Positions 1,346-64,000 of a stretch of 64,000 bases of DNA are shown here, piece by piece. A program made the translations under genes and the position numbers. Location of the stretch: positions 39,346,243-39,410,242 of the forward strand of contig OX419761.1 of NCBI GenBank assembly GCA_948567375.1, in the 5' to 3' direction. A model generated the notes under the pieces. The model searched no databases, had not been told where the DNA came from, and was given only the letters and a program-made list of their open reading frames with translations. The DNA comes from Lunularia cruciata (Eukaryota; Streptophyta; Marchantiopsida; Lunulariales; Lunulariaceae). Position 1 is the stretch's first letter. Each line of letters starts with the position of its first letter.

Positions 1346-1451
1346 TTCATTGTGTACACAAGAGGAGTGACTTGAACCGTCCATCCTTGATTCTGAAATT
1401 CATTGTGTAAGAAAGAGGAACGACTCGAACCGTCCATCCTTGATTCTCAAA
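1346..1451. repeat. 53-bp tandem duplication
   Basis: Two adjacent units start TTCATTGTGTA and share GAACCGTCCATCCTTGATTC. Confidence 0.88.
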
Positions 1452-2030: not shown

Positions 2031-2275
2031 CAGTAAGCTACGGGATATCCCATAGATCTCCCGTACAAAGTTGGCACGAAAATGGCCTAAGTGAAACCCC
2101 CTAATGTACAAACGCTCCCTTGTGGTTGCACCTGAATGGTCCTAAGTGATTTCGTGATTCTCATACCAATGCTACAGTATTCCTGAGCCTTAGCTCCATT
2201 GTATATCTTGTGATTTATCTCCGTATAGTTTGATGGGATCTTCCATTCTTCTTGTTATCTTACCCGGTCTCTTCT

Positions 2276-3529
2276 AATGTATTTGATTCATACAGTCCAA
2301 GATTCGACCACACGTACATTTCAAAGACATGCTTGACGAAAATTCGCGGTCATGTTCCCGGGACATGTAGAAAAGAAAACCATCTTTCCGTTACCGAACC
2401 GTCATGTTGAGAAGCTCCAGCATGAGAATAGTCGTTTCAAAAGAAATGTGAACGTCGATGGAACTTCAAAAAGTATCTTATACTCATTTCTCCCCACTTG
2501 CAAACTAACCCCAAGCAACAAACCCCAAGCATTTAGAATATTGACTAACAAAGTCTCCAGAACTAAATTTGATCATAGATATGCTCACTGTCCTCAGAGG
2601 CGTCCGCGTAGCATAACAGGAACGATGGGAAGACTGTCGAGCTTAATTTTTCTACATGTGAAAGAGCATGAGTTTCTTTTTGTTTTTTGTTTTGTTTTTG
2701 GTGGTAATGTGTATTGCTTAAACACAATATAAGTTGAGTGTTAGCTATTTAGGGTTAGCCCTATTATGAATAAGGTTAAGGTTAATTTTTCCCTGTTCAA
2801 TTGATTCCATAATCTCAAACATTGTGTTGTATAGAGAGACAAGGGAGAGTTTTTTTAAGAGAAAAAAAAGTTCTTTTCTGTTAGTTCTTGGGTGATCCTT
2901 TTTTAACAAATTATTGAGTTAAGTGGAACTTGCACAAAGTGCCTCTGCGTGTGGATGTAGCCCAAGTTGGGTACATCTCAAAATCAAATCTTGTGTCTAT
3001 TTCCATGTTTATTTTCTTGTTTGTGTTTGAATCAAAAATCCAAGCAACAAAGAGTTCTTGGCTCTTTCACTTTTTTCATCTTCCATTAACTGAATGTATA
3101 TTTATGTTGGATTGACACAATATATAGTATTTCCTACTCAAAACCAAAGAAATCTAGGTAGTGCAAAGATCTATCGAGATTGCAGTTCCTTGCATTTGCA
3201 CTATACCTTGAATATTTGATCATCTATTCTTACTTTATTTTGCTGATGTGTACATTACTTATTGCTATCCATGTGTTCCTGGGGAGATATTAGTTCTTCC
3301 TTGAAGAAATCTCCTACTTAGTCATGTTCAAACTTCTTCCTACTACTCCAAAGATCATAACTAAAAAGAACCTACAACTAAGAATAACTATCTTGTGAAA
3401 GATGTGTGGCACAAAATACTATTATACAAAACTACCTTGACAAGAATTTGATTCTATCCTTTAATTTTTCTATCCCACACTAAAGTATCCCTAGACTAAC
3501 TGAATTTCCTGTATACATGTCCTCTAAAT
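2276..3529. other. Unassigned DNA
   Basis: A 126-codon open frame at 2352-2732 (+) has no recognisable motif and ends in a Phe-rich low-complexity tail; treated as chance. No TE signature seen. Confidence 0.35.
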
Positions 3530-5195
3530 TTCAAATCTAGACAATACATCTTTGGACTTTTGTATATCTTCATACTTAGAGACTGCACTTGCAACTTCAG
3601 TTTTTGCAGCTTTCTCATAGTTATCCTTCCCTCTATTGCTTTTCTTTTTTATGGATCCTAGCTGGTCCCAAAGATCTTCTTAAGTCTAAAGTATCTTCAC
3701 CTCTACTCCCTTGAAATACTATCTATACAAGCCTTGAACGTCTGCTGTGATATCCTCCGTCTTGTTTGGTTGGTGTGTAGCTCGCTCTTTCTTCTCTTTC
3801 TTCAATTCCCTTAACTATTTTGCTAATATTTTATCACAAAGTTCTCACTCAAAGAATAAAACAATACTAACTAAACTTCTCTTTGTGGATTCTTCAACTA
3901 TCTTACACTTAACAAGTGTAATGATCACTCTAAATGTACATTTACTTGGGGAAATAGGGACTTTATAGTTTAGAGCCTTTGCCCTATTGGTACTTAGTTG
4001 TTGAATGGTCAAGATCTTCACATGAGGATCGTTTTTGGGTAAAAATGGTGCTTAGTGATAGTTCTTTTTGAATTAAATTATGTATGGTCTTGGGGCCAAA
4101 CTTTGGCAAATGATCTTTTTCCTCATCTTTGGCTTACGGATTGCTCTTTCAACTTTTGACACTTCACTCTTTAGAGTTCTCACTTCCTACTTAAAAATGA
4201 AGTTGGACCCAAATAACTTTCCCAAACAAAAGGAGTCTTCCTAAATAAATGAAATATTTCCTATTAACTATTTAATATTAAACATGGAAAAAGAAGGAAA
4301 AGTCCAAAATTTGAAAATTCTTGGTGTCATTTCTTTGCATTGGCAACAATGTCTTCTCTTCTTTAATCTTTGCTTGCACCAAAGGTGACAAAGGTTTGCT
4401 TGATTGACTAGCCAAACTTTATCTTTTGCTGACCTCAAACCCTTGTCCCTCAAACAACATGTTGATACACAAATCTTTAGTATTTGGATCAATATCTTAC
4501 CCTAGCAGTTTGGAGAGCTTCTTTTCTTCCTTGGTATATGAATCTTCTTTGTCCCCTTCTTTCAAATAACTCACCATCAACAAAGATTGTTCTTTAATCT
4601 CCACTCCTTTTCCTATTATGTTTTTGGTTGCAACTCACAGGTGCTTCCAAAGCTAAATCAATAGAATTCACTCTGAAGATTTCACCTTCCATTTACCTAT
4701 AGTCTTTGTCAAAACTGGCTCTTCTTGGTGAGTCTCTTTGCATCCTTCTCTTCAATGGCTTGAAGAACCTTGTTCCCTCCTGGCTAAGTCATGAAATAGG
4801 TATCGTATAAACAATGCTTGCCAAATATTTCTTGCATGTTGTTAGAGAGTAATACCATACTTGCATAGAAAAAGATAACAAAAGGAACTAAGTAATGGGT
4901 CCTTTGTTGCCAAAGGAATGGTACATCTTTTGAGCATTGTGTGTATAGTGTATGCCAATCCATCCTTTCATTGGCAAAAATTCTCAAACAATATTGCATG
5001 ATGGTGGAAAAGTAGGTTGTTCATTGTGACCACAAAAGTTTTACTATAGCTATCACAATGGCTCACTTTGCTAAATCTTGATAGTGAACCACCAACCATC
5101 CACTCTTTAGGTGCAAATGTGTCATAAAAGCCATATTGTGCTTCCATATTCCCCATCTCAATCCAGGGTATGTTTGCCTTCTTCTCTTTCAACAT
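3530..5195 (-). pseudogene. Remnant of a related LTR-borne coiled-coil protein
   Basis: Minus-strand frames 4968-5195 (FYDTFAPKEWMVGGSLSRFS) and 4784-4999 (ERMDWHTLYTQ, then HYLVPFVIFFYASMVLL) match the D/N-W and F-V-x-x-F-Y blocks of the LTR-borne proteins at 54.4 kb and 18.25 kb. Lower down, at about 3690-3540, a helical stretch reads EDLWDQLGSIKKKSNRGKD and KAAKTEVASAVSKYEDIQKS. LTR boundaries for this copy were not found. Confidence 0.4.
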
Positions 5196-9270: not shown

Positions 9271-9390
9271 TATCTAGAATCATGTGTAATCCCAATAGCT
9301 AGATATATTATCTAGAGGTGAAAATTAATTTGGTAGTATTTGGAAGGATGTTATCTATCATGGATTAAGTAGATCAATAGAGGTATCACC

Positions 9391-9454
9391 AAAAGACTAC
9401 TTCCATTATTAAAGTAAGACCCAAAAGACTACTTCCATTAATAAGGTAAGACCC
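9391..9454. repeat. 32-bp tandem duplication
   Basis: Two adjacent units beginning AAAAGACTACTTCCATTA differ at two or three positions. Internal to the solo LTR; absent from its other copy. Confidence 0.85.
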
Positions 9455-9948
9455 AAAAACACCCTAAAAACTTTAGAGCCAATATTATCTAGAGGTAAAA
9501 ATTAGCTTGGTAATATTTTTAAGGATGTTATATATCATGGACTAAGTAGATTAGATAGAGATATCATCACAAGACTACTTATGTTAATAAACTAAGACTC
9601 AAAAACACACTAAAAGCTTTAGAGCCAATTTTGGATGTCTAAATGGATGAATTGGGCCTTGAAAATAGTCGTATTTATTTCCCATAAGAGAATAGGCTAG
9701 AATTCTGTCCCCAACCATTTTTATTGTTGAGAGGTTTCCAATGTTACCTCACCCATGTGAATCCAAGCTTCCTAAATGAAGATTCCCTAAAGATTCTCTC
9801 TAGTCAAGCTTGTTTGACCAATCAAAAAGGACAAGGACCGACATGTCACCCATCGATCCAACTAATCTAAGGGTGGAGCTCATTGTGATATCACCAATCC
9901 ATACATCTGATCCAAGGGTGGAGCTTCCTTTGAAGGGATCCTCTTTGT

Positions 9949-9955
9949 TATATAA
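9949..9955 (+). promoter_or_regulatory. TATA box of gamma solo LTR
   Basis: TATATAA in TTGTTATATAATAAAGAC; aligned with the TATA box at 47573 in the second copy. Confidence 0.55.
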
Positions 9956-10104
9956 TAAAGACAAGGTGTTCTTTTGAATGTAAAAATTTATGTTTCTTCT
10001 CATACGTTTCTCTTGGAGGTTCTCCTTTCCTCAAAATATTACATAATGGCATATAGGGTAGAATTCCTTGGTCCTAGCACTCTTTGACAATGCTACTCTA
10101 TCCA

Positions 10105-11455
10105 AGAAATTGTTAAGTATGGAGTCTTATTATTACTGAATGCTCTACGTGATAATTATCACAAGAATGTTGAAGAGTCAATGCAAGACAAATCTTCTTC
10201 GGGAGTGTAAAAATGTAAATATGGGACAAATTTTCATATTAGGTAAGTAAGATCAAACTGAAGTGCTCATGTTGTAATTGCAGGTCCGAGCAAAGTCAAA
10301 GACAAAGAAGCAAACTTGGATGGTGTAACACTGAAGGTACAAAGCACCACCCAAAGAAGCACCCACCCAACATGAAGATGTGGGAGATGATGAAGGAAGA
10401 CACGTCAGAGTCAAGTATCTATCAAGGATTATGTGTCCTTTGTTGGTGCAGCTACAAAGGAAGAAGGAAGAGTTGAAGAAGGATCATCCTGGAGTGAAGG
10501 ATGAGTTGGAAGTAGTAAGGCACTAGAGTGAAGAGACCTTGGAGCTGCAAAGTAAGCTAACCCAAGGAAGAAAGGAAGCCAAAAACTTCAAGCTGAAGCA
10601 ATTCTTTGGAAGAAAAGCCTTGATACCTTGCAAGAGAACTTCATGAAGTACAATAAAGAAATAAAGGAGTAGAAGGCCTTGGGTGAGAAGATGAAGCAAG
10701 AAGTTCCTAACTCAATGTGGGACAAATCTTCATATTACAAGATTTCATTATGGGAGTGAAAAAAAAGGCAATTCATATTGGGACCAATATCTTTGTGAAT
10801 ACAAATGTAGATAATGCATGCCTTATCTCATTGGAAGCATTAGAAGCATCATCATGCATTCTCTTCTCAAAGGCTTTCCATAGACACCAAGATCATGGAA
10901 GATAAAACTCTAGGAAAGAAGTTATGTCCATCTAATGTTCGGGCCAAATTTGTCCAACGAGAGCTGCAAGATTCTATTGGGGAGTTACATGTAGGCTATG
11001 GGAGCTACAAGATTTTTGGAGTACAAGCATGGTTGCAAGACCTAAGAGCATGGGACTTATGGGAAGGTTACAAGATTGCGGGACTTGTGGGAATGGTTCC
11101 TACACAAAGTTGCGGAGATGGATCCCACTTGTGGAACTAAGGAGGTGATATGTATCAATTGGTACCAAACAGTCTAGAGTTTAAATATGGGATCAATTAG
11201 GACCACACTTTCCAAAATGAGATAAAGGAAGTAAGTGGAAGTGTATATATATTTTTTAAGTTGGCAACAAGGTGAGACTTTGACAATTCTTGAATAAAAA
11301 AATCCTATGCAATGGTGGATGTAAGTAGAAATTGGCCAAACCACATAAAATTGACATGACTCTTATGCATGTTATTCTTGACCAGATTGATGAATGATTT
11401 TCTCTCTATAAAATAGCCAGATTTGTATACCTATTGCTCTCTCAATTCCTATTCT
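10105..11455 (+). mobile_element. Inserted segment (about 1.35 kb) in alpha LTR copy 1
   Basis: Alpha copy 2 runs straight through the corresponding point (about 18560), so this is an insertion. On the plus strand a decayed frame near 10450-10700 reads LQRKKEELKKDHPGVKDELE and LELQSKLTQGRKEAKNFKL, a coiled coil. A motif around GGGACAAATCTTCATATTA occurs near 10225 and 10718. A TATA-like TATAAAA is at 11407. Boundaries and family are not resolved; an LTR-element fragment is the likeliest reading. Confidence 0.45.
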
Positions 11456-46045: not shown

Positions 46046-46537
46046 TGTAAAAAACCAAGGAGAGAAATATGAGAATGGAAGATCATATTGTGCCTCTTAA
46101 ATGAGAGAACTCCAAATGCATAGCATGAGCTTGAGCTTTGGTATTTATAGAGAATATACAAGGCTCTTGAGAAGCCTTTAAGAAGTTTCCTAAAAGTTGT
46201 CTTCTTAGAATACAAGCTAAGTTAACCAAGAAGCTTCTTGAAAAGTTTTCTTCTAGAAATTGTATACTTTGCATGCAAGCTAAGCTAGTTGGGAAGCTTC
46301 CCAAGAAACTTCCATCTAGAAGCTATATACTTGGCATTCAAGCCAAGCTAGTCAAGAAGCTTCCCAAGAAGCTTCCTCTTAGAAGTCATCACTTGGCATA
46401 CATATTGTCCGATACTTGGAATGGACTAAGTAGCTTCCTAGATGCTTCTAAAACATTCTTATAATTCTTGGCTAATTTGGTCTAATTGCTATTTCATTAG
46501 TCTCGACTAACTCATTTCTAAAATCTATATTGTTATA
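46046..46537 (-). repeat. LTR A (492 bp) of a second chromovirus copy
   Basis: Plus strand starts TGTAAAAAACCAAGG and ends ATATTGTTATA, matching LTR C at both ends. It is longer because of three 63-bp units inside (46213, 46276, 46339). It is followed at 46538-46550 by a decayed PPT and then by a chromodomain end, as in the downstream element. Confidence 0.75.
46213..46395. repeat. Three 63-bp units inside LTR A
   Basis: CAAGCTAAGnTAnnn recurs at 46213, 46276 and 46339, exactly 63 bp apart, each followed by inverted GAAGCTTC motifs. LTR C has fewer units, so copy number varies between LTRs. Confidence 0.8.
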
Positions 46538-46554
46538 TATGCTCCCATCGCTAG

Positions 46555-46781
46555 TTGGGGATGTCTTTCTCACCATGGAAGCTTCAAAATCCTAGATGGT
46601 TATTTGTGCATTGTGGAGATGAGAAAGAGGCTCCCAAGTGGCATCATGAGGGGGATATCCTTTCCAAAGGACTTTGTACTCAATGTGTTATTGGCGGTCA
46701 TGTTGAATGTGACAACGTGCAAGGATATGATCAACCTTATACTCCTCATGATCATTGATGAGGACTAGAGGAGGAGGAAGT
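46555..46781 (-). pseudogene. Second chromodomain fragment
   Basis: The minus strand reads HIEYKVLWKGYPPHDATWEP near 46690-46620, without the stop seen in the other copy. It is bordered by LTR A below, and breaks off at about 46781 into LTR B. It is only the last ~230 bp of an element. Confidence 0.75.
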
Positions 46782-46929
46782 TGTATAAGTAGGAGAAAAA
46801 TAGGAGAATGGAAAGTGAAAGCTCACATTGGGACTCTTGAATGAGGGAAATTTCAAATGCCTAGCATGAGCTTAGGTTTTGGTATGTATAAGGAGAATAC
46901 AAGTTTAAGTTGCTTTCTTGGAGTGCAAG

Positions 46930-47683
46930 TGTAATACCAATAACTAGATAGATGATCTAGAGATGAAATTTGGTTTAGTAACATCTAGAAGAATGTTATA
47001 CATGATGGACTAAGTAGATAAGCTAGAGGTATCACCAAAAGAGTACTTCTACTAATAGGCCAAAAACCAAAAATGCTTTGAAACTTTAGAATCAATAGCT
47101 AAACATATGATCTAGAGGTGAAACTTGGGGTGGTGACATCTAGATGGATGTTACACATGATAGAGAACATAGATCAGATAGATTTATCACCAAAAAACAC
47201 ATTTACTATTAGGGGAGAAGCCAAAATAGGCTTGAAAACTTCAAGCAATTTTGGAGGCCTAAATGGATGAATTAGACCTAAAAAATGTGTAGATTCCCCC
47301 CCTAAACAAAGGAAAGATTGGCCTTCCCTCCCCCTTGGTTTGTCTCACCAAGAGCTTTCCAATGGTACCTCATCCATGTGATTCTAAGATTCTTACAAGA
47401 AGATTCCTTAAAAGATTCCCTCTAGTCAAAGCCTGTTTGACCAACCAGATGGGACCAAGATCGACAAATCACCCATCCAAGCAAGTAATCTAAGGGTGGA
47501 GCTTGCTGACAGGTCCCCTATCCATGTACCTAATCCTATGGTAGAGCTTTATTTGAGTAGATTCTCCTTGGCTATATAATAAAGAGAAGGTGTTCCTTTG
47601 GGACATCGGAGGATTGAGTGTGAAATCTGTGTTTTCTCTCTTATATCTCTCTTGAAGAGTTCTCTTGTCCTCCGAGTATTACA
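46930..47683 (+). repeat. Solo LTR (754 bp), gamma family, nested in LTR B
   Basis: Ends are perfect inverted repeats (TGTAATAC...GTATTACA) flanked by gcaag and gtaag, a 5-bp target duplication with one difference. It interrupts LTR B, whose two halves rejoin across it. A TATA box lies at 47573. No internal domain adjoins, so this is a solo LTR left by recombination. A second copy lies at 9285..10043. Confidence 0.88.
47573..47579 (+). promoter_or_regulatory. TATA box of gamma solo LTR
   Basis: TATATAA within GGCTATATAATAAAGAGAAGG. The same motif and spacing occur in the other copy (9949-9955), which supports it as the LTR promoter and fixes the plus orientation. Confidence 0.6.
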
Positions 47684-47953
47684 GTAAGCCAAGTTAACCT
47701 AGAAGTTTCTCATGAAGCTTTCTTCTAGAAACTGCCTACTTGGCATGCAAGTTAAGTTAGTTGGAAGCTTCTAGAAACTTCCTCCTAAAAGCTATATATT
47801 TGGGGTGCAAGCTAAGCTAGTTGAGAAGCTTCCCAAGAAACTTCTTACATGTTACCCAATATTTGGAAGATACCAAGTAGCTTTTAGATATTTCTAAATT
47901 ATTCTAGGCTAATTTGGCCTATTTGCTACTTTGTTAACCTTGACTAACTCATT

Positions 47954-48306
47954 TGTAAAAGACCAAGATTGAAGAGAGAAATAGGAGAATGGAAGACCAC
48001 ATTGAGACACTTGAGTGTAGGAAACTCCAAATGCCTAGCATGAGCTTTGACTTTGGTATTTATAGGAGGAATACAAGGCTCTTGATAAGCTTCTCAAGAA
48101 GCTTCCTTGAGCCACTTTCTTGGAATGCAAACCAATTTATTTGAGAAGCTTCTCAAGAAGCTTCTTTTTAGAAGTTGCCTACTTGGCATGCAAGCTAAGC
48201 TAGTTAGAAGCTTCTTGGATAATTTTAGAATATGCTAGGCTAATTTGGTCTATTTGCTACTTTGTTAGTCCTAACTAACTTCATTGCTAAACTCCATATT
48301 GTTACA
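47954..48306 (-). repeat. LTR C: 3' LTR of the chromovirus element (353 bp)
   Basis: Plus strand starts TGTAAAAGACCAAG and ends ATATTGTTACA. On the minus strand the purine-rich TAGTGGGGGAATA precedes it directly and acts as PPT. It contains imperfect palindromic AGAAGCTTCT motifs and shares most of its sequence with LTRs A and B. Confidence 0.8.
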
Positions 48307-48394
48307 TATTCCCCCACTACTAGTTGGTGATGTTCTTGTCACCATTGAAGATTCAAACTCTTGGATGGATGTTTGTAAATTCTAAAGATGAGAA

Positions 48395-48545
48395 AGAGGC
48401 TCCCAAGTGGCATCATGAAGGGGATACCCTTTCTAGAGAACTTTGTACTCTATATGTTGTCAATAGCATTGTTGAATGTGATGACGTGCAAGGATACAAT
48501 CAACTTCGTACTCCTCATGATCATTGATAGGGATAGGAGGAGGAG
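48395..48545 (-). pseudogene. Chromodomain of the chromovirus element
   Basis: The minus strand reads EEYEVDCILARHHIQQ, a short gap, then IEYKVL, a stop where Trp is expected (TAG for TGG), then KGYPLHDATWEPLSHL. This is the chromodomain fold that targets such elements to modified chromatin. A second copy of the same end lies at about 46745-46615. Confidence 0.8.
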
Positions 48546-48579
48546 GAGGAGGTTAGACATGAAAGGAAAAAGAAGATGG

Positions 48580-51244: not shown

Positions 51245-52985
51245 AATTGGTTTGATTCACATTGCAAAATAGACTTATCTTCCTCCAAAGCTTACTTTGT
51301 AGTTGTTTCATTGATAAACTTCCCATCTTAGGACTTATATTCCTTCAAAACTTACTTTATGGCTTCTTTCTTGACAAATTTCCCATATTAGGATTGACTA
51401 TTCTTAAGTGTCTTACTCAAAGGTGCTAGAAAATATAATTGGAAATTTCTACCTTGGTGTTGTACTTGAATTTATCATTATTCCAATCAAATTGAACCTT
51501 ATGACGTTCAAGCCAAAGTAGACCTAGAATGATATCATAGTGTAGAGGTGTCACTACAAACTCCATACACTCCAAATAATCCTTCCTAATCTTGAAGGTA
51601 ACAAGATGTAAGGTATGGAATGTTATCTACCATCCGCCATCATTAATCTACTTCCAATTAGTGGCTTGATAGGAACACTTAATTCCTTTGCTAATTGCAT
51701 AGACATGTTAATTCTTTGAACTTCCAAAATCCTACAACCACAACCTTGCAAGTGAATCAAACTTGCAAAGGTTGATGTCATGCATATATACATCACTACA
51801 CAACATACATCACTATCAACATCACACACTATAGAAGCTATGACAACCCAACAAATATCACTTTTGTGGTAATCAGGTAAGTAAAGTTCGTTCCCATAAA
51901 GATACTAGTCAGAATTGGTCAAATACAAAGTCAAATGTCACAATGTAGTTCTTCTTGAGTTCCTCTTTAATCTCTCAGGTAGCAACTACACCCAACAGAG
52001 AGTAACAAGCTCATAATCTTGATCACTTGTCACAAATTCAGACACCCATAATCACAACATAACAAATTCTATCCAAATAAATCTTGATTGTGATGATTTA
52101 GATTCTCTTGAAGACGGCACTTCATTGCAAAACATCTTTGCCTCAGAATTGTGTTCCAACCCTCCATTGAAGGCACAACTTCCTCAATCAAAATTGCTTC
52201 ACATCAACTCAGCGCTACGCATACAACTTCAAAATACTACCAACACTACAATTCCTCTCAGATCTATCAAAGCATTGCTTTGATTGCATTTCAATCAAGA
52301 TCAAACACATAGAGTAAAGATCAAGGCTGCGGAATCCAACATCCAACAAGCACACTAACTTGTACTTCAAATTTCTCCACACACTCATAAACACACACAA
52401 AGTTGACACTCAGAATTAAGCTCAAGCGACGAGCATTGAAATCAACACTTTGCTTTATCTATCTTCAAAAATATGAATACTGAACAATAGTTCATTGCAA
52501 ATGCCACTCTTAAACTATGAAGCAAATGACAATTGCAACAACTATACCGTTCTACAATAACTCTTCTAACATGTAGATCCGAAATGACAATGCACCTCTT
52601 CATATCTGCCTCTTCAAATCTCAAAACTGTTACTACTATGATCCAATGTCTACCTCGACTTTGGCTCCCAAACCTGATGATCCTTCAATAATTTCACCAT
52701 CTTGGGTCTATCTAATCCTACTCCTAACTCTTCTATTTCTACAATCTCTTCACTACAAACTACAATTGAGGTCTTAGGTAATCTTTCTAACTCAATATCC
52801 CTTGACCCACTATTCTCTAAAGTTTCAAGGAACAACTCTGAAGACACTTGTACTCCTACTTCTATGACTTTAGGTCTTAGTACATCTTGTACTTCACTAC
52901 AAATTTTATCTAACTCCATTCTAACAAGATCTAGTCTGAGACACACATTGTCTCCTACTTCTAATATCTTCCTATCTACATGTTC

Positions 52986-53804
52986 TCATAGACAAATTAA
53001 TAAATTATTCAACTCTATATCCTTTGCCTTTCTCTTGCGCATCTCCTGCACCAATAACTTCAGCTCATGCAATCTTGCCTCCTTGAGTTTACCTTCAACT
53101 TTTGTGCTCAACATTGCCTTGATTTCATTGACTACTCTTTCTACTTCATTGGATTCTCTTGCAACTGCAAACTTCTCCTTCTTCCTTTCTTCTTCCAACT
53201 CACTATGATACATCAGGAGCTTGTCTTCAAATTTGGCCTTCAATGTCTCTTTATCCCTTTGATTTATAGAGATTTTCTCTCTTGCTACTTGCACCAATGC
53301 TCGCAACCAATCTTCTTCTCTACCGCACTCTGCTAACTCTTGCTGCAAAGCTTGATCTTTCTCCACTGCTCTCTTCTTGAGACTTTCCAACTCTTGCTCC
53401 ATTACCGCTATAATTGCTTTTGAGTGAATTAACTCAACTTGGGCACTTGCAATTTCCCCCATCAACACTGCAACCAACGTGGTCATCTCCTTTGCCTCAT
53501 TGTGACTCTTTACTAGATCTTCTTTCATCGCCTCAAAGTGCTTACTTTGAAGAACCTCCTTAACTCCAAGTTCTTTGGTCATCTCCACCCTCATCAACTT
53601 ACTTTGCAACAACGAGGTTTCCGCGCTCCAGGTCTTCACTATGGCCAACTCATCTCGCACCTCAAGATTGGCACTTACCATCTCTATCTTCTTATGTTGG
53701 AGAAACATCAACAACGGATACACTACCTTTGACAGATATTCCACTCCTTCGCACTTCTCGCCATCTACTCGGTCTTTGGGTTCCTTCCACTCTACCTCTT
53801 GCAC
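52986..53804 (-). CDS. LTR-borne coiled-coil protein, intact 272-codon segment
   Basis: Product not recognised. This uninterrupted frame lies wholly inside the 3' LTR on the element's sense strand. It is dominated by heptad-like coiled coil: HFEAMKEDLVKSHNEAKEM, then ELESLKKRAVEKDQALQQEL, then YHSELEEERKKEKFAVARES, ending in the basic MRKRKAKDIELNN. The frame is the C-terminal part of a longer decayed ORF that begins about 1.1 kb upstream within the LTR (next entry). The same protein can be read in the 5' LTR (for example 63207-63464), with different disabling mutations. There is no membrane segment, zinc knuckle or enzymatic motif. It may be a captured host gene, an accessory protein or a gag relative; nothing shows expression. 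Confidence 0.55.
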   Translation of the reverse strand: MQEVEWKEPKDRVDGEKCEGVEYLSKVVYPLLMFLQHKKIEMVSANLEVRDELAIVKTWSAETSLLQSKLMRVEMTKELGVKEVLQSKHFEAMKEDLVKSHNEAKEMTTLVAVLMGEIASAQVELIHSKAIIAVMEQELESLKKRAVEKDQALQQELAECGREEDWLRALVQVAREKISINQRDKETLKAKFEDKLLMYHSELEEERKKEKFAVARESNEVERVVNEIKAMLSTKVEGKLKEARLHELKLLVQEMRKRKAKDIELNNLLICL

Positions 53805-54890
53805 TGTGCCCGAAAGTCACGATCTTTGTACTTTCAAAGTTTCTTCCTCTGAGCTTTCCTCTTCTTCCGTGGTAGCTTTACTGGGCCCTACTTTGACTGC
53901 AATCATAACATTCTTCCCCTTGGTAGTCTAGGGTTATGCCATGACTTCCTCTCCCTTCTTCCTCTCACTGCCCTGTTCAAGAGTAGAGACTTTGGGACTC
54001 GGCTTTCCTGCCTTGATCATTGGCCTTTGTGTTTGTTAGACCTCTGCCACACCTTCACTATCACTGCTCAATTCTCCACTTTGTAGCATGAACTCCTCTT
54101 CTTCTCCCGACATTTCTCCCTTCGATCCACTTTCTCCTTCCGACCCTCCTTTTGATTCCGGCATGACTTCCTTTGTCTTCACCAACATTGTCGTTGGGTT
54201 GAGCTTTGGTATTTTTTGAGGCTGGACTGTTGCAACACGACTCTTGGGCTTGGCTCTCTTTCTAGCTCTTGGAAGGTCAATTGCTACAATTTTCTCCTTC
54301 CCACTCATCTTGTAATACTCATCCCCATTTTGCACTCTCTCATCTGCATCTACCTCCTTTTGCAAATCCGGATGAAAGTGCGAGTGCATTCAATTTCTCT
54401 CTTCCAAGGTCAGCAAGTTCAACCTAAAATAAAAGTGCGTTGCAAAAGGCACAAAATAATGCGGTGGCATGTGTATTCTCCATCTTGAAATCATCTGCAC
54501 CACTCTCTGATGCAGACATTTTGCCCAATCTACTACTTGTCTCGCAAACATTTAGTGAAAGAACACCACCTGTTGCATAGTAACATAGGTGGTTTGCTCT
54601 GGCTTGAACATTGCCATCATCACACTTACTATCCCTCTCTACTCAGGGTCTCTATAACTATCCACCTTATGCCAATTCTTGGTGCAAGAGTGATTGAACG
54701 AATTCCTCACTTTGGCAATTTCTTCTGAAGCATCACACTTTTGATAGAAGGTGGTACCTCCTATCTCTCTTGCTTCACTCTCCAAAACTACTCTCCAATC
54801 CGCCTCCATCCATTAAGATGGATTTCCTCTCTTCCCCTTGTGCTTCGGTCCATCCTTGCAATTGCTTGTTACAATTTCTACCATGAAACT
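53805..54890 (-). pseudogene. N-terminal part of the LTR-borne protein (decayed)
   Basis: The reading frame upstream of the 272-codon segment, interrupted by a few in-frame stops, runs from about 54885 (MVEIVTSN) through MEADWRVVLESEAREIGG, a cysteine-bearing stretch, then RQVVDWAKCLHQRVVQMIS and HYFVPFATHFYFRLNLL. A basic stretch (RARKRAKPKSRV) and an acidic one (GEMSGEEEEFM) follow before the coiled coil. The stop after SDSEGVAEV is a CAA glutamine codon in the 5' LTR copy (near 63900), so at least that stop is a late mutation. Signature F-V-x-x-F-Y recurs in the alpha LTRs at about 18250 and 9000. I do not know the family. Confidence 0.5.
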
Positions 54891-55549
54891 TGGAAAATTG
54901 AAGTTCTAGTTCCAGGCCAAGAACGTGATACAAAGTCTTATCAAGACTTTGATCCGTGCTATTACTTCTAAATTACAAAGTGCAAGCCCCTCACCGCACT
55001 CTACTTACTCACCTTTGAGGTCATTGTGTGTTTTCTAACCTTCTTCTTGTGGAAGATCATTCCCAAGATCCTAACCCACTTCTCTTCTTGCGGATTTAGA
55101 ATTTGCATTCCTTTGGGTCAACTCTAAATAAGCACAGGTAGCAATTGGACATTGTTCTACTTCCTTGTGCAACTTGTGATTTTATAGTCTTGCCCTGATT
55201 GGTCATTCTTTAGTTGCTCCTCCTCTCCAGTCTCTGATTTGGTGAAGTTGTTTCTTGTCACTATCAAGAACTTCTTGATCCCAAGGTCATTACTTTTTTC
55301 CCTTGTACTTTCTTGATTGGCCCGACTCCAAAGAAGTTTGTTATAGGTTCTTTAGGACAGATCACACCGCTTGATACAAAGTCTTACCTTCTTCTTCTTC
55401 ATCTTCTTGACTCGAGGTCGACCTCGGGTTTACTTCAAACCCCCGCTTCTTCTTATTTCTTCTCGGTTTAGCTCTCTTTAGGCTTTATCCGCGTACTTCT
55501 TCTTCAAATTTTCCTAATCTATCCAAAACAAAAAATAGTGGGTACTACA

Positions 55550-55565
55550 TACCCCCTCCCTCAAA
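55550..55565 (-). promoter_or_regulatory. Polypurine tract of the Tat-like element
   Basis: Minus strand TTTGAGGGAGGGGGTA immediately upstream of the 3' LTR start TGTAGTACCC. This is the plus-strand DNA primer for reverse transcription and it fixes the inner LTR boundary. Confidence 0.82.
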
Positions 55566-55807
55566 TGTGAGTGTCCCCGCAAACACTGACAACCGGTTCT
55601 TTATACGAAGTTGGGTCCGTGGTCCAATATTTTCTAACCCTCCACCCATTTACTCAAGTGGCAAAAAGGATTGCCTTCTAGGTCCACAAGTTGAATAGAG
55701 CCATTAGCATATATGTGCATAACACAATATGGCCCCATCCACCTCAAATGTAGTTTCCATGGAAAAAATATGTGGTGATTTCCATAGCACAATACCAAGT
55801 CACCTTC

Positions 55808-56781
55808 CTAAACAACAACAGGCTTGATTCTCTTATCATGCTTAACTTTCCACTGTTCTTGTACTTCCTTTGTGGTTTGCATTGCATTATCCCTTTTCTC
55901 TTCTAACCACATCAGTTGGTGGATCCAAAGATCTTGGCTTTCTTCCTCCAACAATCGTTCTTCCCAAAGAATCCAATATGTCAATACTTCAAATTCAATT
56001 GGTAGTATGGGATGCAATCCGTATGTCAGGAAATAGGAAGTTTGCTTGGTGGTGATTTTTTCAGTTGTTCTATATGCCCACAAAGCTGCAGGTAACTTCA
56101 TGTCCCAATTGTAGGCATAATTGACTATCACCTTGTTCAAAATTTTACACAACAATCCATTGGCCTTCTTCGTTAGTCCATTTGCTTTTGGATTGCAGGG
56201 AGTTGTCTTCCGATGTTTAATTTGGAAGTACTTGGTTAATGCTTCCACCATAGAGTTCAAAAAATGAGTTCCCCAATCACTAGCCAATTCTAGAGGACAC
56301 CCGTAACGGGAAATGATGTTTTGGAAGAAAAATTCTGCAATTGTTTCCGCATCATCTCTTCGTGTTGCCTCTGCTTCTACCATCTTGGTAGCATAATCAG
56401 TGCATACCAAGATGCACCTCTTCCTCATGACTCTGGTCACTGGTTGAATTGGTCCTACAAAATCAATTCCCCATTCTCAAACGGAGCCAATAGCAAAATT
56501 GGTTTCAAAGGCCATTGGGAAGTCACCGTCGGTTTTCCTATTCTTTGATAGGCATCACAACTTCGGATATGGGCATAAGCATCTTTATACATCATAGGCC
56601 ACCAATACCCTACTGCAAGGATTTTCTTCACAATATTCTTCAAGGCATAGTGTCCTCCCAATGCTTCAGAGTGTAAGGATTCAATAAATCCTCCAACTTT
56701 GTATGCCTCCAAACATCTCCAAAGTACTTCATCTTCACCGATCTTAAACAAAATGTTGTGTTTTAATTGGTACAATCTCAT
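55808..56781 (-). pseudogene. Integrase of the Tat-like element, catalytic Glu lost
   Basis: Frame 56455-56781 holds the zinc-binding domain (HSEALGGHYALKN then RSCDAYQR), in which the second Cys of C-x2-C is Tyr. Frame 55808-56440 holds the core: CTDYATKMVEAEA with the first Asp, LASDWGTHFLNSMV with the second Asp, and NPKANGLTKKANG, where a Lys stands at the expected catalytic Glu. Both changes are single transitions. A C-terminal basic tail follows and no chromodomain is present. DNA insertion activity is therefore not expected. Confidence 0.87.
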
Positions 56782-56874
56782 CTTCCTGAGGAAGACTGCC
56801 CTCTATTTTGGGTCCAGCCCTTTAGGACAATGACACGTATGTAGATAATGATATTTGGCTGCATACCTTGCACT

Positions 56875-57339
56875 TCAAACAACCATTAGATGATACAATT
56901 CTTCATTAGGAAACCGATCATCAACTTCCAAGTCTTGGTCTTGAGTTTCTAACCTGGACAAGAAGTCCGCATTTGAATGCAAAGCTCCCTTCCTTACTTG
57001 TATAGTGTTTGTGAATTCTTGTAACAACAAGATCCATCTTGCAATTTGCCCGGATAAATCTGCCTTCTTGACCAAATGTTGCAATGCGTAATGGTCAACA
57101 TTGAAGACAAACTCGTATCCCAATAGGTAGTGGCAAAATTTCTTGCAGGCATAAACCATTCTGAGCACTTCTCTTTCAGTTGTTGAATAGTTCTTTTTTG
57201 AAACTAATAATTGTTGGCTGGCATAATAAACCGAGTAGTCCTTCTTCTTCTCATCCTTCTGACTTAAGACAACTCCAATTGCCATGGACAAAGTATCCAC
57301 ATACACATGAAAAGGGGCGTCCCAATTTGGGGCCCTCAT
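56875..57339 (-). pseudogene. RNase H domain of the Tat-like element
   Basis: An open 154-codon frame follows the RT. It reads PFHVYVDTLSMAIGVVLSQ (the first Asp is retained, although the usual D-A-S is D-T-L), YYASQQLLVSKKNYSTTERE (with catalytic Glu), and VFNVDHYALQHLVKK, where D-H-x-A-L is the third acidic motif. It would degrade the RNA strand of the RNA-DNA hybrid. The preceding frame ends a few tens of bases away, so one frameshift separates it from the RT. Confidence 0.86.
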
Positions 57340-57371
57340 GATTGGCCTTCAACCAATTTCTTCTTCAATAC

Positions 57372-58272
57372 CTAGAAAGTTTCTTCTTGATTTGCTTCCC
57401 ATAGGTAGTCCTCGGATTTCTTCAAAAGCTTTGTACAGGGTGCAGCAAGCACCGCATAGTTTGAAATGAAGCGTCTATAGTATCCGACATGTCCCAAGAA
57501 GGCTCTCAGCTCCCAAATGTTCTTTGGAGATTCCAAAGGTGAGATAACTTTGACCTTCTCAACATCAACTTCAATACCTCGGCTTGACACTCAATGCCCT
57601 TGAAGAATTCCCTCCTTCATTGTGAAGAAGCATTTTTCTAGGTGTAATGACAAACCAACAAAATGACACCTTTCAAAAGTTTGGCAAAGGTAATCGAAAT
57701 GTATATCTCTTTGCCCAAACACACAAAAGTCATCAATAAAGACTTCCACAAATTTGCACAAGAAATCCTTGAAGATTGTATTCATCATCCATTGGAAAGT
57801 AGCGGAGGCATTACACAACCCAAAGGGCATTTGATTGTAAGCAAAAGTGCCCCAATCGGTAGTGAATGTGGTTTTATCCTTGTCCTCTTCTCGGATGGAC
57901 ACTTGATTGCACCCTAAAAATCTATCGAGAAAATTGTAACAAGGGTGACCAGCTACTTGGTCCAAAATTGTATCGGTAAAAGGCAAGGGATGATGATCCT
58001 TCCTTGTGATTGCATTTAACTTGCGGAAATCTTGGCACACTCAAATCTTCCCAATCTTCTTCTTCAAAATGATGACTATGGGGGAAACCCACTCATTGCT
58101 CAAGATAGGAAAGATTATTCTGGCCCCTAAGTACTTATCAATTTCATCTTTCACTAAGAGTGAGTACTTTGGGTTCAAGCAGATTGTCTTTGCCAAACCA
58201 GAACTGCACCTTCAACCAGATCAATCTGGTGTTCTCCAAATTCTTGTGGAACACCCAACATTTGATCAATAG
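57372..58272 (-). pseudogene. Reverse transcriptase domain of the Tat-like element
   Basis: RT motifs in order: CQDFRKLNAITRKDHHPLP, FLDRFLGCNQVSIREEDKD, TTDWGTFAYNQMPFGLCNA, and the catalytic box EVFIDDFCVFG with both Asp intact. The connection GIEVDVEKVKVI and ELRAFLGHVGYYRRFI follows in the next frame. The N-terminal part above 58040 is disturbed by stops. The domain order and the FGLCNA/FIDD boxes are diagnostic of Ty3/gypsy. Confidence 0.9.
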
Positions 58273-58510
58273 ACTAGGCAAATACATCCTAGAATTCTAT
58301 AAACATGGCAATGTATTCTACCAACTCCTTCAAAGTGACTGTCTTTGAAATTTTCAAAAGTTTTCCTTCGGTCAAGACAACATCTTGATAGTCATTGGGA
58401 TTGATGAATCCTTTGACGTGGCTTACTCGGCTTAATCTGAGCCAAACTGTAGTCAAACCTCCTTCCTCAAAGTAGTGTTCACCTGAGGCGATGTTGTATG
58501 GGTCTTTGTC

Positions 58511-59161
58511 TTAGACCTCTACCTCGTAGCATTCTAAGTAATTGACTTGGACTTTATCTTTGGAAGACAAAGATGATGAATCTTTGGATTCATCTTTGTC
58601 TTCCGACGAAGTTGTTTCCCTGAGGTGAGGAACCTTTGTCCAACTCACGGTCACCAGCTTCTGTTCTTTGGATGAAATGTCCTTAAACCGTAACTTTTGC
58701 TGGTGCCAATCCACAATAACCTGGGCGCTATACAACCAGGGTCTTCCTATCAAGAGAGGATAACCAATTTTGGTTATTGGTCGCAACACAATATAATTTA
58801 ACTTGAAGGGCACCACTCCAATGATCGTAGTGATATTTGACAGCATGCCCAAGCGCCGTCTCTTGGTTTGATCCGCAAATTTCAGAATTTGGAGTATTGG
58901 TTCAAACATTGTATACCTCAGTCAATGTGCAGTGTCTTCTATGATGACATTCACATCCGACCTCAAATCAATGGGTATGGATGTGATCATGGAGCTTGTG
59001 ATCTCCGCATCTACTTTGGGAGATCCCAAATCTTCTTGTTCAATACAATAAATTGTGGGCAAGTCTTTCTTGGTCATCGCCTTACTTCTTGTACAGCTTG
59101 TTGTCCTTCCACAATTGCTTAAATGTGACATTAGCACTTGTAGATGCCAAATCAGCCACAA
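58511..59161 (-). pseudogene. Aspartic protease domain of the Tat-like element
   Basis: Two adjacent frames carry the retropepsin fold. The active-site region reads IDLRSDVNVI where D-S/T-G-(A/S)-D-V-N-V is expected, so the catalytic Asp is present but the S/T-G pair has become L-R. The C-terminal flap/strand region YPLLIGRPWLYSAQVIVDW is well preserved. It lies between gag and RT as in Ty3 elements. The changed active site and the frame break make it inactive. Confidence 0.8.
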
Positions 59162-59710
59162 TATTGTACTGCGGAACTCCTCCCAACTTCACCTTCTTTG
59201 CCTTTGTCTTCGGGTCCAAAGTTTGTCCTTGTTCAAATTTGACTTCAGGGTCCTTCAAGATGGTAATTAGAGTAGGGGTGGCCTTAACCCAATGTTCTTT
59301 GGGTTGACCGACTTTGGCTTGAATCAAGTCCTTTACTTTGGACCTGATATCCGCAAAAAAAAACTGGAGGCTTTGTCTTTGTGTTCTCCTCCAAACTCAT
59401 CTCCCGCATTTTTAGTACAACTTCTTTGATTTCTTTTTGCAAGGCTTTTGCTTTAGCTTTTGCTAGAATCTTTTCCTCCTTGGCAGAAAGGATGGCTTTT
59501 GGGCATAACCTCTTTGCCTTTTGCAAAGACAAAGAAGTAGTACTCACTTCTTTGAGATCGCGCTTCTTCTTACCCGCACGTGTCTCTACCTTCAAAATTT
59601 TGAGGTCTGGCCATTCTCCTTCTAAAGCGGGACCCCCTTCTTGAGGCCTCTCTTCCTCAAGTGTTGTACAATTTACATTTGTATCCCCTTTTGCTTGGAG
59701 TGCAACATGC

Positions 59711-61536
59711 TCAGCAGGGGTTTGTACATATTTTACTGGTGGCTTTGAGTTTGGTGGTTGCGGGCATAATTTCTCGTATGTCCCAATCCTTTACAATTTC
59801 CACAAAGTAGAACGTACCCAATTTTCTGTCTTGGCTCCAGACAATTTGGTGACCAATGTCCCATTGAGCCACAATTATAGCAAGCACCCAATGCAACATT
59901 TTGAGGCCTATTTTGGCCGCCCATTGGTGGTCTTCGTGGGAGAGCATTATTATACTCCCTTGGTCCATACCTCGGACCTTGATACAATGTGCTTACTTGA
60001 GGCTGTACCTCTTGGGTTTGGTACACAATTTTGTCTTCCTCACTTTGGTCCCAATCAAGAACCCAATCAATTTGTTGCACTAGAAATGTAGTGCATGTCA
60101 AACACTCCGTATTAGCATGGCCAGATTTACCACACATAGTGCACCATACATTTGGTCGGCCAAATGATGGAGGCTTTCTTCGGTCCTTAGCCCCAATCAT
60201 CTGGATCTTGAAATCCGCAAACTCTTTAATGAGAGTCTCCAGCTTCTGATCCGCCTTAGGTACATTCTTTGCTGGCGGTGTTATTGGTTTCTTTCCTCCG
60301 CATCTTCTTATTCTTCTCGACTTTGACTCTTCTTTGGATTCCAAAGAAATTTGAAGATGTGGAGGATTCCTCCGAAGAAGGGGATGTACAGCGAGAAGCT
60401 CTCCTTCTCGGCTTCTTGCCTTTCTTCTCCCAATTTCTTTGGTTGCTGGACAAGTGAGAGTGAGCCGCCTCATATTCGGCAACATGTTTGAGGACTTTGT
60501 CCAGGGAAGTTACATTCCTCTCCTTGGCAAAGATACAAATCTTTGGTGAAAGTCCACCAAGAAACCAGGTCATGGCTTGGGCATCGGAGTAACCCACCAC
60601 ACCAGATTGTTTTGGAACTTGGTTCAATAGGGCCATGAACTGCTTGGAGTAATCTCTCAACTTTTCCTTCTTTCCTTGGTCCAAATCATTGAGTGCCGCA
60701 AAGACCCTTGTATCATAATCAACTTCTCAAAATTGTTCTAGGAAGCCATTTCGTAAGTTTGCCTAGTTGGCTAGTGTGAACCTCTTCTGGGTTACATGGG
60801 TACTAGCTTCGAGCTTTCTTTCGGAGCAAACTTGGGAAAATTCACAAACGATCTGTAGAGTCGTGTTCCTTGTTAGCAAAGGAGATCACTTTGAATTCTT
60901 TGATAAATTCATCAGGATCTTTGTCTTCTTTTGTCCCCTTGTACTTTTGATAGGCATGTTGGGTGATAGGTAATGAAGTCATCATTTGACTTGGTGGGAT
61001 TGGCTGGAGTAAATTTGAACTTGATGGAACCAAGGGGTTGACTGGTATCGATGTCATGTTGTCGGCCTAGGGGTTCTAATTAGTCAAGTTTGCGGTAGGG
61101 TCTTCCTCAACAATTTCCTCTCTAAGTGTGTCAACTTCAACATGAGTGGAAGAATCAGGTTCAACACCTTCAGAGTGATATTTGAGATTCCTTTGAGAAA
61201 ATTGAGGAATCATACGTAAGAGGTGTTGACACTTTTCTTCTGTTAATGTTCATGCTATCTTTTCTTGAACAAAGTTCTTTAGAAACACGACTTCCTTTCA
61301 GCTTTAGGAGAAGTTGGTGTAGTGGGTCGTAGTGAATATGTATGCCCGTTTGAGTCTTTCTTCTTCTTGGAAGATGGAGATGCAAAGTAGCCTTGCCAAT
61401 TGCCTTCACGTTTCTTTTGGTCAAGTTCTTGTAGGGCTTCTTGCACTTTGTGAAGAAGTTGAAAGTCGAATGCCTCGCATTTGGTTTTGTCAAGAGTAGA
61501 TTGGATCTTCAGGCGTTCTTCTTCTTTATGTTGCAA
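59711..61536 (-). pseudogene. gag of the Tat-like element
   Basis: Structural nucleocapsid/capsid gene, broken into frames at 61279-61536, 60842-61057, 60256-60684 and 59733-60485. Recognisable parts in order: a helical N-terminus (CEAFDFQLLHKVQEALQELD), a retrotransposon gag core (QGKKEKLRDYSKQFMALLNQ, then AMTWFLGGLSPK), a basic linker, and three zinc-knuckle-like motifs: CTMCGKSGHANTEC (one residue off perfect spacing), CYNCGSMGHWSPNC (perfect CX2CX4HX4C) and CGNCKGLGHTRN, which lacks the final Cys. It would package element RNA in the cytoplasm; decayed here. Confidence 0.85.
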
Positions 61537-61647
61537 TGTTTGTCTTTGAACTCTCTCTTCTTATTGTTCTCTCAATATAGACATTCATATTGTTTAAACA
61601 TCCCAGTTTGAAATTGGCTTCGTATTCATCCACTTCTAAGATTTGTA

Positions 61648-61666
61648 TCCCTAGCAGCGGTGCCAA
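61648..61666 (-). promoter_or_regulatory. Primer-binding site (tRNA-Asp type)
   Basis: Minus strand TTGGCACCGCTGCTAGGGA, starting a few bases after the 5' LTR end. Against the classic Athila/Tat PBS complementary to tRNA-Asp it matches 14 of 18 positions and all differences are transitions. This is the tRNA primer site for minus-strand DNA synthesis. Confidence 0.8.
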
Positions 61667-61674
61667 AAATCATG

Positions 61675-64000
61675 TGACAACCCGGAAAATATCACTTTTG
61701 TGGTAGGCAGGTAAGTAAAGTTTGTTCCCATAGACATACTAGTCAAAATTGGTCAAATACAAAGTCAAATGTCACAATGTAGTTCTTCTTGAGTTCTTCT
61801 TGAGTTCTTCTTTAATCTCTTAGGTAGCAACTACATCCAGAAGAGAGTAAAAAACTCACAATCTTGATCACTTGTCATGAATTCAGACATCTATAATCAC
61901 AACGTAACAAATTCTATCCAAACAAATCTAGATTGTGATGATTTAGATTCTCCCAAAGATGGCACTTCACTGCAAAAAAACTTTGCCTCAGAATTGTGTT
62001 CCAACCCTCCACTAAAGGCACAACTTCCTTGATCAAAATTGCTTCACATCAACTCAGCGTTGCACTCACAACTGCAGAATACTACCAACACTATAATTCC
62101 TCTCAGATCTATCAAAGCATTGCTTTGATTGCACTTCACTCAAGATCAAACACACAGAGTAAAGATCAAGGCTGCAAAATCCAACATCCAACAAGCACAC
62201 TGACTTGCACTTCAAATTTCTTCACACACTCACAAACACACACAAAGTTGACACTCGGAATTAAGCTCAAGCGACGAGCACTGAAATCAACACTTTGCTT
62301 TATCTATCTTCAAAAATATGAATATTGAACAATAGTTCATTGCAAATGCCACTCTTAAATAGTGAAGCAAATGATAGTTGCAACAACTATACCATTTTAC
62401 AATAACTCTTCTAACCTACAGATCCGAAATGACAATGCACCTCTTCATATCTACCTCTTCAAATCTCAAAACTGTTACTACTCCAAACCAATGTCTACCT
62501 TGACTTCGGCTCCCAAGCCCGATGATCCTTTAATAATTTCACCATCTTGGGTCTATCTAATCCTACTCCTAACTCTTCTATTTGTACAATCTCTTCACTT
62601 CAAACTACAATTGAGGTCTTAGGTAATCTTTCTAACTTGATATCCCCTGACCCACTCTTCTCTAAAGTTTCAAGGAAAAACTTGGAAGACACCTATACTC
62701 CTACTTCTACAACTTTGGATCTTCGTACATCTTGTACTTCACTATGAAGTTTATCTAACTCCGCTCTAACAAGATCTAGTTTGAGACACACATTGTCTTC
62801 TACCTCTAACATCTTCCTATCTACATGTTCTCACAGATAAATTAACAAATTATCCAACTTTCTATCCTTTGCCTTTCTCTTGCGCATCTTGTGCACCAAT
62901 AACTTCAGCTCATGCAATCTTGCCTCCTTGAGTTTACCTTCAACTTTTGTGCTCAACATTGCCTTGATTCATTGACTACTCCTACTTCATCGAATTCTCT
63001 TGCAACTGCAAACTTCTCCTTTGTCCTGTCTTCCTCCAACTCACTACAATACATCTAGAGCTTGTCTTCAAATTCGGCCTTCAATGCCTCTTTCTCCCTC
63101 CGATTCAAAAGCAAAAGATAGCAAAAGAGCAAAAGATTTGCTCTTTTGCTGCTTGCACCAATGCTCGCAACCAATCTTCCTCTCTATTGCACTCTGCTAA
63201 CTCTTGCTACCAGGCTTGATCTTTCTCCACTGCTCTCTTCTTGAGACCCTCCAACACCTGCTCCATTACCGCTGTAATTGCTTTTGAGTGGATTAACTCA
63301 ACTTGGGCACTTGCAATTTCCCTCTTCAACACTGCAACCAACATGGTTATCTCCTTTGCCTCATTGTGACTCTTTACTAGATCTTCTCTCAGTGCTTCAA
63401 AGTGCTTACTCTGAAGAACCTCCTCAACCCCAAGTTCTTTAGCCTCCATCTCCACCCTCGTCAACTTACTTCACAACAGTGAGGTTTCTGCACTCTAGGT
63501 CTTCACTATGGCCAACTCATCCCGCACCTCAAGATTAGCACTTACCATCTCCATCTTCTTCTGCTAGAGAAATATCAATAGTGGATACACTACCTTTGAC
63601 AGATAGTCCACTCTTTTGCACTTCTCACCATCTGCTTAGTCTTTGGGTTCCTTCCACTCTACCTCTTGCACCTTGCCCCGAAGTCAAGATCTTTGTACTT
63701 TCAAAGTTTCTTCCTCTGAGCTTTCCTCTTCTTCCATGGTAACCTTACTGGGCCCCACTTTGACTGCAATCATAACGTTCTTCCCCTTGGCAATCTAGGG
63801 TTGTGCCATGACTTCCTCTCCCTTCTTCCTCTCACTGCCTCGTTCAAGAGTAGAGACTTCAAGACTCGGCTTTCCTACCTCAATCATCGGCCTTTGTGTT
63901 TGTTGGACCTCCGCCTCACCTTCACTATCACTGCTTGGTTCTCCACTTTGTAGCATGAACTCCTCTTCTTCTCTTGACACTTCTCCCTTTGATCCAATTT
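61675..64000 (-). repeat. 5' LTR (partial) of the Tat-like element
   Basis: Direct repeat of 51841 to about 54131, same orientation. The LTR terminus TGACAACCC (plus strand) abuts a 4-bp spacer and the PBS. It continues past the window end; the missing part should be about 1.4 kb if it matches the 3' LTR. Confidence 0.88.
63207..63980 (-). pseudogene. LTR-borne coiled-coil protein, copy in the 5' LTR
   Basis: Counterpart of the 3' LTR frame. 63795-63980 reads SREEEEFMLQSGEPSSDSEG and continues past the point where the 3' LTR copy stops. 63207-63464 reads KHFEALREDLVKSHNEAKEI and then AVMEQVLEGLKKRAVEKDQ. The protein continues toward 62820 with a frame break, and toward the window end. Conserved residues lie mainly in heptad core and charged positions. 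Confidence 0.6.

Follow-up and report, generated by a model that had tools for sequence, protein, structure and literature searches.

A probable accessory gene inside the long terminal repeats of a Ty3/Gypsy retrotransposon of the liverwort Lunularia cruciata

Long terminal repeats (LTRs) normally hold only control signals, and solo LTRs are viewed as inert scars or stray promoters. Here we describe a Ty3/Gypsy LTR retrotransposon on the minus strand of a 64,000-nucleotide stretch of the Lunularia cruciata genome (assembly GCA_948567375.1, contig OX419761.1, positions 39,346,243 to 39,410,242; hereafter the window, whose numbering is used throughout). In this element an accessory gene very probably lies wholly inside the LTR, stands at both ends, was under selection in the past and has been kept across sister families. 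A first-pass annotation, made from the letters of the window, had already proposed a protein-coding frame carried at both ends of the element, and the frame is indeed present in the 5' and the 3' LTR. The features on which the argument turns are as follows.

51839..55549, minus strand: 3' LTR, 3711 bp with TG at its start, defined by the repeat pair and by end matches among fetched loci
61673..64000, minus strand: 3' part of the 5' LTR, which runs beyond the window edge and was read whole in locus L009
51834..51838, no strand: target site duplication GCTTC, its second copy outside the 5' LTR beyond the window (L009)
55550..55562, minus strand: polypurine tract directly before the 3' LTR, read from the sequence
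61648..61665, minus strand: primer binding site TGGCACCGCTGCTAGGGA, 7 nt after the 5' LTR
52650..55024, minus strand (element sense): LTR gene, about 790 codons, broken in the window copy
54315..54884, minus strand: conserved N-terminal domain, from alignment and profile, of no known family
52989..53804, minus strand: 272-codon open stretch, rich in Glu, Leu and Lys, with predicted long helices
52653..52985, minus strand: conserved C-terminal part, with sister-family matches within residues 584-744 at 50-59%
55181..55186, minus strand: TATAAA, probably the core promoter for the LTR gene and kept in 28 of the 34 aligned rows
51839..52649, minus strand: non-coding LTR tail, 0.7-0.9 identity between families, no codon periodicity

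Within the window the repeat pairs 51841-55549 with 61675-64000, and locus L009 shows the full-length repetition beyond the edge. The two LTRs are 88.7% identical over LTR positions 1-3709 and lie 9.85 kb apart; because identical GCTTC copies stand outside both, the pair represents one insertion. The true LTR end is 51839, two bases past the 51841 stated earlier. The terminal letters of the 3' LTR are TTGTCATA here and TTGTCACA in many other copies; it ends in TA, and the CA end is found in the element's own 5' LTR and in many copies. A search of the 566-Mb genome gave 6905 candidates, of which 40 were scored, so that our sample consists of the nearest copies. Of the 39 loci fetched (L009-L047), 23 match the LTR from at most 5 bases of its start to at most 12 bases of its end. 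No internal sequence of the element was found on either side in 15 of these 23, and 11 of the 15 carry a 5-bp duplication with at most one mismatch; solo LTRs are therefore common in this family. Passages of PMC6317226 and PMC11963269 describe extra open reading frames (ORFs) past pol as common in plant Ty3 elements, and the frame would be an ordinary one of this kind if 51841-55549 were internal sequence, a finding that the first-pass annotation had named as fatal to its proposal. We give this explanation practically no weight, since the frame is repeated at both ends of the element, the GCTTC duplication lies outside both repeats, and solo copies have the same ends and duplications of their own; 51839-55549 is thus an LTR.

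Read in the sense of the element, the 743 codons from 54881 to 52651 hold 9 in-frame stops, compared with 43.8 +/- 4.0 in dinucleotide shuffles, and none of 2000 shuffles was as low; the long upstream frame with few stops reported in the first-pass annotation is thus borne out. The longest open run, of 276 codons, exceeds that of every shuffle (maximum 174). The 272-codon frame singled out at the time (52986-53804 with its stop) is equally real, and the stops of the window copy lie at 54815, 54641, 54554, 54392, 54038, 53936, 53930, 53819 and 52988, in addition to an N-terminal frameshift. The predicted protein consists of a conserved N-terminal domain, a charged linker, a long part rich in Glu, Leu and Lys, and a conserved C-terminal part. 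The region is purine-rich, and such sequence is poor in stops, which would favour a chance open frame. This possibility was rejected, and we regard it as virtually out of the question: it was reproduced in none of 2000 composition-matched shuffles, the codon-position signal described below is confined to the frame and to shared changes, and the same signal is found in all 20 sister-family pieces.

To follow the frame through the close family, we aligned 33 LTR copies, namely the 5' LTR of this same element plus 32 further copies, against the 3' LTR of the window, giving 34 rows. Fetched loci were used where the LTR match is unbroken over 2900 bp or more, which left out L025, L028, L043, L044, L046 and L047; insertions relative to the reference were dropped, and frameshifts are accordingly absent from the stop counts. 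The Met at 54884 is kept in all 33 rows covering that position. Translation upstream of it in each copy places the likely start about 47 codons earlier: a start resembling MTPKVSK is open or nearly open into Met 54884 in 21 of 32 readable rows and shifted there in the other 11. Three readable sister-family copies share a conserved stretch before this Met, with ATG as the likely start in two and GTG in one. In the window copy the start ATG is at 55024, followed by the frameshift, and the frame closes with the TAG at 52652-52650. This gives a predicted ancestral protein of about 790 residues. The first-pass annotation had proposed an ancestral protein of about 600; a shared and constrained frame stands, whereas the length was too low and the frame begins upstream of the interval given for it (52986-54890).

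All 33 copies keep the frame, in the sense that it holds 2-18 stops per copy while the two other frames hold 58-78 and 43-56. The in-frame stops of the 34 rows are spread over 115 different codons. The 5' LTR of the element carries the same protein with different defects, as had been claimed. Within the part of the 5' LTR that lies in the window, eight stops are found only there, three internal stops are common to both LTRs, and the stops at 54038 and 53936 of the 3' copy are Gln codons; the swap to Gln noted earlier is real, but it concerns two stops and not one. In total, the pair differs at ten stops. A 23-bp T-rich insertion at 63133-63111 also shifts the frame of the 5' LTR copy.

The first-pass annotation had suggested dN/dS (the ratio of nonsynonymous to synonymous substitution rates) between LTR pairs and between elements as a check. 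Differences within the element's own pair cannot test coding, because its LTRs were identical at insertion and then drifted neutrally; third positions take 84 of 210 such differences, with 73.8 expected (z 1.5; expected values throughout account for base and methylation context). Comparisons between insertions and between families are free of this limit. In the 34 rows, changes confined to a single copy, mostly post-insertion, fall at third positions as expected (359 of 1072; expected 360.1). Changes common to at least three copies, which stem mostly from the source lineage, favour third positions (351 of 816; expected 268.7, z 6.2), and so do shared transversions on their own (83 of 165; expected 53.6, z 4.9); methyl-C decay does not produce transversions. 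Outside the gene the same count of shared changes gives z 1.6 in the LTR upstream region and z 0.9 in the tail. Of the separate parts of the protein, the linker and the helical part show a significant transversion excess relative to singletons. Since the third-position excess occurs in shared changes and not in singletons or the LTR flanks, the codon positions show purifying selection in the source lineage before insertion and neutral decay after it. The absence of a shared, constrained frame, which would have spoken against the proposal, was thus not what we found.

Ten stretches beside sampled copies (L048-L057) hold more distant LTRs, and nine of them encode pieces of the LTR protein at 34-59% amino-acid identity (E to about 1e-91). 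One example, L051, covers residues 1-631 at 36.6% identity (E about 1e-91). The third codon position is the least conserved in all 20 tblastn pieces considered (9 loci; at least 100 residues, below 62% identity), which cover N- and C-terminal parts. At the DNA level, LTR identity is 64-67% in L048, L050, L051 and L053, which align over most of the LTR, and 63-68% over all. Where traceable, the sister matches start at LTR position 552-568; the region upstream differs between families. In L048 the internal part of the element, with a primer binding site, follows on the LTR without a break, which places the gene inside a 5' LTR in this case as well. Downstream of L048 and in the same orientation, L058 is a second LTR of the L048 subfamily that carries part of the frame. 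The two are 86-88% alike, with 6.75 kb between their LTR ends, and L058 is probably the partner of L048; no internal sequence was found beside L058. When the genome was searched with the N-terminal domain as it stands in the L051 family, 21055 first-look candidates came up, of which 150 were scored, each an 83-100% match. Among these best 150, five have open frames of at least 600 amino acids, the longest 861, so predicted long open copies of the LTR gene do exist in the genome. The same 150 include two same-strand pairs with a spacing of about 9.92 kb, close to the 9.85 kb of the present element and the pattern expected of the two LTRs of a single insertion, and the argument that the gene would stand at both element ends in sister families draws on these two pairs.

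The N-terminal domain profile also finds three distant, broken relatives on the minus strand of the window, at 9308-8967 (profile E 1.5e-11), 5143-4781 (2.7e-10) and 18509-18130 (9e-4), with no C-terminal part detected beside them. Because of these relatives, the predicted protein family is wider than this LTR family. A weak further piece of the LTR protein lies on the plus strand at 10410-10559 (50% over 50 residues). The search for a known family by profile, proposed in the first-pass annotation, came out negative: neither the read-through protein and its pieces nor 11 N-terminal domain sequences nor 4 open pieces matched any Pfam family above its cut-off, and the Pfam models for the Plant mobile domain, Transposase_28 and Athila ORF-1 proteins of the extra-ORF (eORF) type were not matched. 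A PDB profile search with the N-terminal domain gave one chance-level row only (E 0.2), PHROGs gave one weak unnamed row for 1 of the 11 domain members (E 0.032), and a scan of viral contigs with the 272-residue stretch gave no relative. Kinship with the element's gag fragment was likewise rejected, the comparison showing no similarity.

Upstream of the gene, TATAAA stands about 160 bp ahead of the gene start and 302 bp before Met 54884. Three of the four sister LTRs examined also have a single TATAAA, at -333, -309 and -295 relative to the equivalent Met; as L051 and L053 are close relatives, these amount to only two independent cases. Within the 34 aligned rows, tail included, the box at 55186 is the only TATA box that is conserved. 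Therefore the gene appears to sit directly behind the LTR promoter, and this conserved box is the sole evidence for the putative transcription from both ends that the first-pass annotation had proposed. Between families no part of the LTR is better conserved than the tail, which surpasses even the third codon positions of the gene; an RNA start, a role in packaging or recent exchange from one family to another could account for this. A palindrome found there is not conserved and was set aside. These observations bear on a different arrangement, namely a gene in U3 as in sag of mouse mammary tumour virus (MMTV) or nef of human immunodeficiency virus (HIV). Here genomic RNA would start in the tail past the frame, a short R and U5 would lie in 52649-51839, and the upstream TATA box would be a separate promoter for an accessory mRNA. 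The strong conservation of the tail between families is what R and U5 might show, and our own placement of the RNA start would imply a very long R or U5, which would be unusual. On the other hand, the tail has no conserved TATA box in the 34 rows, the only conserved box being upstream of the gene. We consider the U3 arrangement possible, though on the doubtful side.

Several observations weigh against an accessory gene kept by selection inside the LTR. None of the 33 sampled close-family copies has an intact gene (2-18 stops each). The internal stops at 53930, 53819 and 52988 are common to both LTRs of the element, so its source copy may already have been broken before insertion; heavy CpG decay (9 sites kept in both LTRs, 33 lost in one) means that parallel loss could explain these common stops, but only 108 of the 366 stops in the aligned rows are a single C>T or G>A step from the majority codon. 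In the close family, the N-terminal part (22 shared changes) and the C-terminal part (53) show no significant transversion excess when taken alone. NG86 estimates of dN/dS are uninformative: they are 0.44 for the own LTR pair and 0.37 for the between-copy median (561 pairs), with off-frame controls at 0.56 and 0.67 and the tail at 0.51, and were dropped as evidence since these neutral controls are also far below 1. The fourth sister LTR examined, L050, has no TATAAA in about 310 bp of upstream sequence. A search of 5.77 billion proteins with one 480-residue query (residues 1-480 from 54884) returned nothing at E 1 among 4526 candidates. Finally, the heptad pattern of the 272-residue segment is no better than in shuffles, 424 of 1000 being as high. 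The corresponding counts are 719 for L012, 91 for L048 and 21 for L051, so that one of four segments beats the 5% level, and AlphaFold2 run on the helical part as a single sequence predicts three long helices with a mean pLDDT of 67. The coiled coil assigned to the frame in the first-pass annotation is therefore plausible but weakly indicated, a guess in effect, while the open frame itself stands.

Two further explanations have to be weighed against these points. The gene could be a passive passenger of no use to the element, as might be suspected from the broken state of all 33 close copies and from the absence of detectable internal sequence beside the LTR copy in 26 of the 39 fetched loci. 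However, substitutions common to several insertions, and so mostly from the source lineage, carry the mark of purifying selection, and we regard a passenger as very improbable. Alternatively, the LTR could have captured a host gene, an origin considered in the first-pass annotation, and a protein that resembles neither the gag fragment nor any Pfam family above cut-off would fit such an origin. Against this, the protein search with its one 480-residue query found no homologue, although the set includes liverwort and moss proteins, and the copies in the window that have diverged further are likewise broken; this counter-evidence is weak, as the many element copies could hide host copies in the genome. 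We keep host capture as an unlikely alternative, and our preferred explanation is an accessory gene that belongs to the element and lies within its LTR.

Under this explanation the LTR would consist, from its 5' end, of an upstream region of about 360 bp that closes with the TATA box, a leader of about 130 nt, the gene of about 790 codons and the 810-bp tail leading into the primer binding site. RNA would start just after the TATA box, which would make the LTR gene the first frame on a transcript initiated in the 5' LTR; the same unit of promoter and gene would be carried by 3' LTRs and by solo LTRs. As reverse transcription copies the LTR, the gene is duplicated at each insertion. The likeliest role of its product, which we put forward tentatively and at less than even odds, is that of an accessory or regulatory protein encoded by the element. 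It would combine the conserved N-terminal domain and the charged linker with a long helical part that may self-associate, and its target in trans would be either the RNA or cDNA of the element or the silencing machinery of the host. More broadly, we come close to an even view, if slightly on the sceptical side, of the idea that in a large, high-copy bryophyte Ty3 lineage the LTR is a self-contained gene with promoter, coding region and probably terminator, the first transcribed unit of the element and expressible from solo LTRs until decay. Supply of the accessory protein would then be uncoupled from full-length elements. With a conserved gene inside the LTR, moreover, solo LTRs can serve as sources of protein, a protein family is hidden when LTRs are masked, and replication has to cope with several kb of coding sequence in the terminal repeats.

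The internal part of the element retains the following recognisable pieces.

59733..60485, minus strand: gag fragment with zinc knuckle (PF00098, 1.9e-5)
56875..57339, minus strand: RNase H part of pol (PF17917, 1.3e-27)
55808..56440, minus strand: integrase fragment, a Pfam match just under the cut-off (30.3 vs 32.6 bits)

The identity of the integrase fragment is supported by 109 relatives, the best named of which come from liverworts and a moss at 60-70% identity in the top rows. In sense order, RNase H (57339-56875) precedes integrase (56440-55808), as in Ty3/Gypsy elements, and TG...CA ends, a 5-bp target duplication, a primer binding site and a polypurine tract are all present. The primer binding site resembles the tRNA-Asp type; that of copy L033 reads TGGCGCCGCTGCCGGGGA. 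An Rfam search of 51500-64000 gave no match. Just past the 3' LTR, 50929-48649 on the minus strand is the remnant of a second Ty3 pol, 28-43% alike to the pol of the element. Elsewhere in the window, diverged repeats stand close together at 46046-48547, a 760-bp repeat (69% alike) occurs at 9281-10043 and 46926-47683, and a 308-codon open frame on the minus strand at 31180-32106 matches Peptidase_M20 (E 1.1e-20) and is probably a host gene.

Accessory genes of LTR retrotransposons are already known, and what is new here is that the gene sits inside the LTR and has a promoter box to itself. MMTV sag and HIV nef are accessory proteins coded wholly or partly in LTR sequence, in the U3 of vertebrate retroviruses. 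The present gene differs in that the only conserved TATA box is upstream of it; the comparison is one of description, with no Pfam family above cut-off to link the proteins. No report of a protein coded inside plant LTRs was found among the open-licence papers searched, and the passages seen of PMC11302176 and PMC2410132 describe no gene inside a plant LTR. The Phygy elements of Physcomitrella, as portrayed in an excerpt of PMC6317226, are likewise bryophyte Ty3 elements outside the chromoviruses, and the integrase here is nearest to liverwort and moss sequences. Those elements, compared by description, are rather short, with a polyprotein that fills nearly the whole internal part and insertion at NCGN. 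Retrosat2, in the portion consulted of PMC3485330, resembles our element as a plant retrotransposon with LTRs above 3.2 kb and an extra ORF0; that frame is placed upstream of the gag-pol ORF and is not assigned to the LTR, and the likeness is again one of description and not of sequence. The antisense TRP28 ORFs of Retand, according to sections of Vicient 2025 (PMC11963269), also encode a conserved and possibly regulatory accessory protein, but they are internal, between pol and the 3' LTR, in elements with LTRs of 315-1194 bp, and the LTR protein differs from TRP28 in having no Pfam match. Extra ORFs of plant LTR retrotransposons have been classed, in the part drawn on here of Neumann et al. 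2019 (PMC6317226), as eORF-5'F, 5'R, 3'F and 3'R, with Ogre, Retand and Athila as examples. Like these, the gene described here is a highly divergent accessory frame of at least 250 codons beside gag-pol, with unclear function; whereas they lie between LTR and gag or between pol and LTR, here the whole gene stands within the LTR, at both ends of the element and in solo LTRs.
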